Shown piece after piece: positions 39,501 to 64,000 of a stretch of 64,000 nucleotides of DNA. The stretch spans positions 35,876,795 to 35,940,794 of the forward strand of contig OY759274.1 in the NCBI GenBank assembly GCA_963662155.1. The letters run 5' to 3'. Within the stretch, counting starts at the first letter, position 1. Each line of letters opens with the position of its first letter. The stretch comes from Lamellibrachia columna (Eukaryota > Annelida > Polychaeta > Sabellida > Siboglinidae). Position numbers and translations under genes: made by a program. The notes under the pieces are model-generated. The model was given only the letters and a program-made list of their open reading frames with translations, had not been told where the DNA came from and did no database searches.

Positions 39501-42500
39501 ACTTCAGTCATTCACTTCAGTCATTCACTTCAGTCATTCACTTCAGTCATTCACTTCAGTCATTCACTTCAGTCATTCACTTCAGTCATTCACTTCAGTC
39601 ATTCACTTCAGTCATTCACTTCAGTCATTCACTTCAGTCATTCACTTCAGTCATTCACTTCAGTCATTCACTTCAGTCATTCACTTCAGTCATTCACTTC
39701 AGTCATTCGCTTCAGTCATTCGCTTCAGTCATTCGCTTCAGTCATTCGCTTCAGTCATTCGCTTCAGTCATTCGCTTCAGTCATTCGCTTCAGTCATTCG
39801 CTTCAGTCATTCGCTTCAGTCATTCGCTTCAGTCATTCGCTTCAGTCATTCGCTTCAGTCATTGATTGCAGCTTCTTGTTTCACTCATACTAATCATCAG
39901 CCACATTTGTTTGTCGACAACTAACTACAGTTGAGTCGTATTGCAGGTCATTCAGCCACACTATGTACAGGTTAACCCAGACACCTACTCGACTTCTTGG
40001 AAAGAATTCAGCCACACTATGTACAGGTTAACCCAGACACCGACTTGACTTCTTGGAAATAATTCAGCCACACTATATACTGTATTAAAGCTATTCATAC
40101 AGATAATTCCATCACTCTAATTGCAAGGTTCTCATTTATAGTTATACACCTGAGTGGTGGCTAGAAAAGTGGATTCAGACTCGGCTCAGTTCCAAGTGTG
40201 ATGCTATAGCAAACTCCATATTGAACATACAAGACAACTCTGAATGCAGGCAGCGATCTCCCATCCCTAGACGCTGTGTTTAGTACAGCAGACTGGGGAA
40301 GGTCTCAAAACATGCACTCATGGTTGACTTTGTATGACAAGAATCACACTTAAATTAAGCTGTCGAAGCTGGGCTAAATTAGTACAACTTAATAGCCATT
40401 CATATGCACCCAATAACATGTGGAGCACATCAACTTAGAATCTGGTTGACAGTGATTGTTTGACACATTCCCTGGTAATGATTGTTTGACACATCCCCTG
40501 GCAATGATTGTTTGACACATCCCCTGGCAATGATTGTTTGACACATCCCCTGGCAATGATTGTTTGACACATTCCCTGGCAACGATTGTTTGACACATCC
40601 CCTGGCAACGATTGTTTGACACATCCCCTGGCAAGGATTGTTTGACACATCCCCTGGCAACGATTGTTTGACACATCCCCTGGCAACGATTGTTTGACAC
40701 ATCCCCTGGCAACGATTGTTTGACACATCCCCTGGCAATGATTGTTTGACACATTCCCTGGCAATGATTGTTTGACACATCCCCTGGCAACGATTGTTTG
40801 ACACATCCCCTGGCAACGATTGTTTGACACATCCCCTGGCAATGATTGTTTGACACATTCCCTGGCAATGATTGTTTGACACATCCCCTGGCAACGATTA
40901 TTTGACACATCCCCTGGCAACGATTGTTTGACACATCCCCTGGCAACGATTGTTTGATACATCCCCTGGCAACGATTGTTTGACACATCCCCTGGCAACG
41001 ATTGTTTGACACATTCCCTGGCAATGATTGTTTGACACATCCCCTGGCAATGATTGTTTGACACATCCCCTGGCAACGATTGTTTGACACATCCCCTGGC
41101 AACGATTGTTTGACACATCCCCTGGCAATGATTGTTTGACACATCCCCTGCTGCAGCTACTGTACCTGAAGATACTGTAGATAAAACCAATACCACATTT
41201 TTATTAAGAAGTTGACAATATTATTTCTCGTACAGATTTGTTTATTTCTAATACTGTGACAGATGCACAAGGATATGTCAGACAATTAATATTGATTCGG
41301 AAGATTGTCTCTAGGCTGCTATTAATGCCATTGGTATTCTATGAAAGACCAGCTTATAAATTGACAATATCAATACGGTAGTGTCAGTCATATCAGTTCA
41401 AAGAGGATTGATGATCTGGCCATTAATTTCTGATTGGTCATGTGTGTCCAGAGCATACTCTCTGGGCCTAGTTGGTATCCAGGCAATGTGGTTGTGTATC
41501 ACACAAATGTGACACAATAACTCATCCATTCTAAGGTGTCTGAATAAATGTTTTCGATATTTCCTACTGTTTTCCAAGCTGCCATTTAGTCGATGTCGTC
41601 AAAATGTTGATAGGCTGCTGGATATTGATTTAATCATAATGGCTTATAAGCTAGGTATTTTGTAATAATGCTTTGTTACTGAATACATAATGAATAAGGT
41701 AAGCACGTTACTGCTATATGCACGTGTGCATACTTGCGTTCGTATGTGCACACAAAAATGCATGCACTGACATGGGAAGATATTTTGACCAGCTGTGTAT
41801 TGTTGATCTTTCCTAAAAAAAATTTGCTTGTGTTGTTTTAGAAGCATTTCTCAAAAATTCAAAACTGCTTAATATGCTCTGTGATATGCTAGCTTGTTTG
41901 TGCAATTTTATGCCATGAACCCGGTGATCTGTCCCCTTTTACTGTCAGCACTGTCACAAGTAATTCCTGTCACTAGGTGGAGGCACGTGATGCTGAAATC
42001 GAGCGGATGAATCGACTGTTGAGCGGAGGGCGGCCAGCCGATGTCGTCGCTCTCGAGGCAAGAAACCGCAGCAACGAACGTCTCATTTCACACCTCAATA
42101 TCCAGGTGGGTCTCACATGAACACCTGTAATCCAGGTGGGTCTCGCATGAACACCTGTAATCCAGGTAGGTCTCGCATGAATACCTGTAATCCAGGTGGG
42201 TCTCACATGAACACCTGTAATCCAGGTAGGTCTCGCATGAATACCTGTAATCCAGGTGGGTCTCACATGAACACCTGTAATCCAGGTGGGTCTCGCATGA
42301 ACACCTGTAATCCAGGTGGGTCTCGCAAGAACACCTGTAATCCAGGTAGGTCGCGTTTGAACACCTGTAATCCAGGTGGGTCACGTTTGAACACCTGTAA
42401 TCCAGGTGGGTCTCGCATGAACACCTGTAATCCAGGTGGGTCTCGCATGAACACCTGTAATCCAGGTGGGTCTCGCATGAACACCTGTAATCCAGGTGGG

Positions 42501-64000: not shown

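Follow-up and report, generated by a model that had tools for sequence, protein, structure and literature searches.

The tandem arrays that span exon-intron junctions in the genes encoding CEP135 and kinesins of the deep-sea vestimentiferan tubeworm Lamellibrachia columna are best interpreted as mirage-type minisatellites, founded in the ordinary way and tolerated where their extra copies enter an intron (probability approximately 0.78). The rate at which such arrays were encountered, about 2% of the sampled junctions, suggests that they are frequent in this genome, and a two- to threefold excess over chance at splice junctions is possible.

The analysed window is a stretch of 64,000 nucleotides (positions 35876795-35940794 of contig C14) from an assembly that totals 879,693,805 bases in 30 contigs. 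The structure of its CEP135 gene was completed with the proteins of relatives, with exon boundaries placed by eye, and comprises 27 coding exons between about 23520 and 71063 (window coordinates), extending past the window end. The protein read from these exons presents 96% identity to the Lamellibrachia satsuma protein and 87% to the Ridgeia piscesae protein. As originally predicted, three CEP135 donors lie inside arrays that repeat an exon end together with its donor (30 bp x 14, 53 bp x 16 and 23 bp x 105, from TRF and flanking DNA; Table 1), and no further exon of the gene is affected: a 24-nt recurrence test on its 26 donors and 26 acceptors, 4 of these 52 positions being approximate, flagged 3/26 donors and 0/26 acceptors across the whole gene. 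By both TRF and this test, the repeat unit of the three arrays spans the exon-intron boundary. The proposal that the 5' splice site of the exon itself supplied the units, repeatedly and with unrelated sequences, was likewise borne out, the exonic half of every unit deriving from conserved coding sequence.

Table 1. Junction-spanning arrays and associated CEP135 exons in L. columna (window coordinates)
Feature	Position	Strand	Remarks
First CEP135 coding exon found	23520..23676	+	Lingula relative; start approximate
CEP135 exon ending ...SHLNIQ	41977..42105	+	last ~14-16 nt form the exonic half of the A1 unit
Array A1, 30-bp unit	42100..42534	+	TRF: 30 bp x 13.9 at 42100-42516
CEP135 exon ending ...CEVDQLNK	47747..47913	+	last ~30 nt recur in array A2
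Array A2, 53-bp unit	47882..48745	+	16 copies + partial; TRF: 53 bp x 16.1 at 47882-48733
CEP135 exon ending ...RIEELLSSK	62050..62160	+	last ~16 nt recur in array A3
Array A3, 23-bp unit	62147..64000, on to ~64583 past window	+	TRF + flanking DNA; ~105 copies
Kinesin donor array L055			65 bp x 3.1
Kinesin donor array L116			52 bp x 3.2
Kinesin donor array L137			41 bp x 2.6
Kinesin acceptor array L045			63 bp x 2.4
Kinesin acceptor array L115			28 bp x 10

The first donor of each CEP135 array is the one used in the predicted proteins of relatives. Those of L. satsuma and Ridgeia both join at the A2 and A3 junctions (DQLNK/VLRAK; LLSSK or LLSTK/EQER; slashes mark junctions), and the Ridgeia protein also joins at the A1 junction (SHLNIQ/IDFLQ), downstream of which the L. 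satsuma model begins. A genome DNA search with the A2 exon end returned 15 matches, all of them at its own locus, indicating that A2 arose in place; a dispersed element or an introner was hence rejected as the source of A2. In A3, a block of 24 units is present nearly three times over, and the final partial copy of A1 terminates at CAG/GTAAAAATAA. Assemblies tend to err at tandem arrays, and the arrays could in principle be artefacts of this kind, an explanation to which we assign a very low probability. The units within A1, A2 and A3 vary among themselves, the assembly derives from about 38x PacBio HiFi coverage as reported in PMC13080331, and the mean read, about 8.8 kb from the base and read totals given there, compares with arrays of 0.4 to 2.4 kb.

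Several additional features were observed in and around this gene. The intron following the CEP135 exon at 61038-61212 opens with GC (AACCAG/GCAAGT), a GC-AG type donor. The intron containing A2 presents a second array (48811-49088; 46 bp x 6, 99% matches), most copies of which carry CTGTAAGTG, a good donor match, although no exon could be identified at this position. A unit of 24-31 bp (ACAGGTCTGCCAGGGGGTG and similar sequences) occurs in tandem or single copies at several places and in both orientations (43048-43415 and 50698-51394 in the window, 86961-87053 and 94603-94975 beyond it, and loci L043 and L099), and is a dispersed repeat forming minisatellites.

Tandem arrays make up 18.5% of the 264 kb surrounding the window and 27.5% of CEP135 itself, and chance overlap with junctions is therefore not negligible. 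The expectation that arrays would favor donors over random positions did not hold in a direct comparison, since 1,551 of 5,381 random non-exonic points in CEP135 (29%), and 1,113 of 5,865 in the wider 264 kb (19%), fell inside arrays by the 24-nt recurrence criterion, against 11.5% of CEP135 donors; this comparison counts copies and is biased toward long arrays. A founder null was also evaluated, in which a single unit per array is assigned a random position along the collapsed sequence, wholly exonic units being barred. Under this null, 0.51 donor and 0.51 acceptor arrays are expected in CEP135, or about 1.0 junctions, compared with the 3/52 observed. The probability of at least three donors is 0.012, a post hoc value, and that of at least three junctions of either kind is 0.076. 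The latter is the safer figure, because the donor arrays were the reason for choosing CEP135.

An independent sample of junctions was obtained from kinesin-domain exons identified through a Pfam search, which returned 130 match rows; 110 were taken, with 250 bases on each side. The 20 excluded rows, 18 with open-frame values of at least 292 aa, initially read as copies lacking introns, and 2 in the same genes, may have biased the sample. Junctions in array-bearing regions were read by eye. Arrays span 3/110 donors and 2/110 acceptors (Table 1), or 5/220 junctions (2.3%, 95% interval 0.7-5.2%), the denominator being nominal because some sampled exons lack securely placed junctions. Boundary arrays are hence present at both 5' and 3' ends in this genome, with two secure acceptor cases. 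On the basis of 18 further arrays within these flanks, 2.3 junction arrays would be expected in the kinesins (P = 0.08), or 3.1 without edge correction (P = 0.21). Pooling with CEP135 yields 8 junction arrays versus 3.28 expected (P = 0.019), a figure that includes the ascertained gene. Pooled donors (6/136) and acceptors (2/136) do not differ significantly (Fisher P = 0.28), and neither do CEP135 and the kinesins, be it for all junctions (3/52 and 5/220, P = 0.18) or for donors alone (3/26 and 3/110, P = 0.08).

Two kinesin paralogue exons, L040 and L045, are identical at 180 of 187 bases, and the acceptor array is present only in L045: L040 has a single intron end, and L045 additional copies that include exon sequence. 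An array of this type can hence come or go with the exon unharmed. In these two paralogues, which lie on contig C15, the following exon presents donor-spanning copies in each (L116 and the end of L045), indicating that several junction arrays per gene are not peculiar to CEP135. At L035, L056, L057 and L098, intronic arrays end within about 3-10 nt of the acceptor; these adjoining arrays contain no exon-derived sequence (P 0.26 to 0.56), and illustrate that arrays can reach the 3' splice site. L067, at a donor, was a doubtful case (P = 0.017), and L068 (18/24) and L105 (17/24) each showed one recurrence without a TRF minisatellite; all three were left out of the count.

A further candidate acceptor case was withdrawn. 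An array of 69 bp x 44 lies on the minus strand upstream of the window, next to a WD40 exon, and occupies about -9324 to -6268 in window coordinates. The frame of this exon is open through the array for 1156 codons (L013:300-3737, about -9700 to -6260), and adding one 69-bp unit to the exon raised the best Pfam beta-propeller match from 40.3 to 44.4 bits and lengthened it, with no improvement in a PDB search. The unit is a multiple of three, and the array may be a 23-residue coding repeat of the WD40 gene, or else it is an acceptor-spanning array; it was dropped as an acceptor case because it is possibly coding. A myosin profile search of the genome returned 77 match rows, among which C6:44937057-44937152 and C6:44937549-44937644, 492 bp apart, both match profile positions 121-152, possibly representing a duplicated exon piece.

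The abundance of donor-like arrays was also assessed across the genome with a motif of three successive MAGGTAAGT instances separated by gaps of 10-40 bases, the reversed motif serving as the sole control. The donor motif returned 718 matches and the reversed motif 698. This parity, together with the two kinesin acceptors spanned by arrays (L045 and L115), speaks against the donor specificity envisaged by the original prediction. Distinct arrays were tallied by eye among the matches listed: the donor motif gave 14 over 113.4 Mb and the reversed motif 18 over 276.8 Mb, the density per Mb of the former being 1.9 times that of the latter (P = 0.08). Within the 113 Mb common to both lists, the tally among the matches listed was 14 donor versus 10 reversed arrays (P = 0.54).

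These counts bear on an alternative in which splice junctions are real founding hot spots for minisatellites, via AG/GT microhomology or a DNA structure linked to transcription and splicing. The pooled excess, the excess of CEP135 donors alone over the founder model, the higher density of donor-motif arrays and the two arrays, A1 and L137, that terminate at the donor itself all argue for it. The pooled excess, however, leans on an ascertained gene, and the kinesins by themselves do not reach significance with or without edge correction; the genome-wide matches are close in number to those of the control, the tally over shared sequence does not differ significantly from it, and acceptors are affected too. 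Moreover, four of the six donor arrays end in repeats other than AGGT. As read by eye, short repeats flank both ends of A2 (TCTA), A3 (ACTCCT), L055 (CAAG) and L116 (CAxTCTGG), so that founding driven by AGGT, as had been put forward, is not supported by these four, and AGGT may have been involved at the ends of A1 and L137. We therefore consider a true hot spot improbable. The variety of end repeats fits slippage or microhomology-mediated duplication using whatever repeat is present, an enzymology that we infer from these ends.

The other alternative is that selection maintains donor arrays, be it as a bank of U1 snRNP sites shielding introns from premature polyadenylation or as a supply of alternative donors. 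The AG/GT dinucleotide pair is intact in 15/15 units of A1, 14/17 of A2 and 100/107 of A3, as selection retaining donors would predict. Nonetheless, conservation of the AGGT columns does not significantly exceed that of the remaining ones (2/12 variable versus 31/94, Fisher P = 0.33), and arrays at acceptors would be useless for either role. A coding test also argues against it. Reading on from each CEP135 exon to the motif-intact downstream donors (14 in A1, 14 in A2 and 96 in A3), the retained piece contains a stop in 14/14, 13/14 and 96/96 cases, respectively, or 123/124 in total, and none of the 124 motif-intact inner donors of A1 to A3 both preserves the frame and avoids a stop. Coding logic consequently requires the first donor to be the productive one. 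Taken as a whole, selection for donor banks is highly improbable.

Ordinary founding followed by tolerance in the intron, the reading we favor, can be outlined in four steps. Slippage or microhomology-mediated events would first produce tandem duplications of about 20-70 bp anywhere in this array-rich genome. When the duplicated segment straddles an exon edge, one copy would retain the exon and its splice site, as agrees with the L040 and L045 pair, and the surplus copies would land in the intron, making duplication at a boundary nearly neutral; wholly exonic duplications would mostly be lost. The array would then grow and be homogenised by unequal exchange, as suggested by the repeated block in A3. 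Finally, the coding constraint on CEP135 points to splicing at the outermost, exon-attached site, with the intact intronic donors acting as decoys.

Arrays of this type have precedents. The original prediction had regarded serial donor minisatellites in one gene as undescribed, but amphioxus 'mirages', the human IFI6 gene and human tandem repeats at exon-intron boundaries were already published. The name was given to boundary-spanning minisatellites in amphioxus Adh3, which the cited account also places in globin genes; both boundary types, 5' and 3', are involved, splicing of Adh3 and globin is reported as undisturbed, the Adh3 mirage is reported to show somatic instability, and a role as a source of introns has been proposed (PMC3087553). 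Similar duplications are described for amphioxus PGBD5 by a study that also refers to Adh and troponin C (PMC3902484). What the amphioxus and tubeworm arrays share is tandem duplication, in minisatellite fashion, of exon-intron boundaries on the 5' as well as the 3' side. They differ in that the amphioxus mirages are reported with 3 and 6 copies, whereas those of the tubeworm, an annelid, reach about 105 and affect about 2% of sampled junctions.

In human IFI6 (6-16; Turri 1995), a minisatellite with multiple splice donors is reported (PMC4526556). Its units bear donors at the exon end, as do those of CEP135, but its downstream units are described as alternative donors, whereas the inner donors of CEP135 would break the protein by coding logic. 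Human internal tandem repeats at exon-intron boundaries, reported in segmental duplications with average units of 30 bp and 27 intron modifications (PMC2812944), resemble the tubeworm arrays as expanded minisatellites at these boundaries; unlike the CEP135 arrays, they are said to give rise, in recent paralogues, to new introns and to alternative transcripts. Intron gain via tandem duplication over an AG/GT proto-splice site is also a published idea (PMC3087553), and shares with CEP135 the duplication across AG/GT, but in CEP135 the intron pre-exists. Among the open-licence papers listed by literature searches, none showed junction-spanning arrays in annelids or vestimentiferans, which is weak evidence of their absence. 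Repeats within the first intron are reported for earthworm metallothionein genes (PMC12783039).

The results extend what had been a curiosity of some amphioxus genes to another phylum and suggest a high rate. Given the 21,983 coding genes reported for L. columna, at 7.12 exons per transcript (PMC13080331), the rate of 5/220 would extrapolate to thousands of junctions genome-wide. Each array constitutes a natural experiment in splice-site choice, with copies of one donor at known spacing along a conserved gene, and in the CEP135 arrays the first copy alone would yield a working protein by coding logic. The arrays also offer material for testing models in which introns are gained through tandem duplication, and draw interest to the possibility that junctions are mild hot spots of founding and to the means by which the spliceosome would choose the outermost donor among about a hundred near-identical ones. 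In its broadest form, which we regard as unlikely, the finding would mean that junctions in the tubeworm lineage are minisatellite hot spots, two- to threefold over their surroundings, that thousands of them carry banks of spare, nearly identical splice sites from which the spliceosome must choose the exon-attached site among up to about a hundred copies, and that these banks are raw material for new exons and introns.
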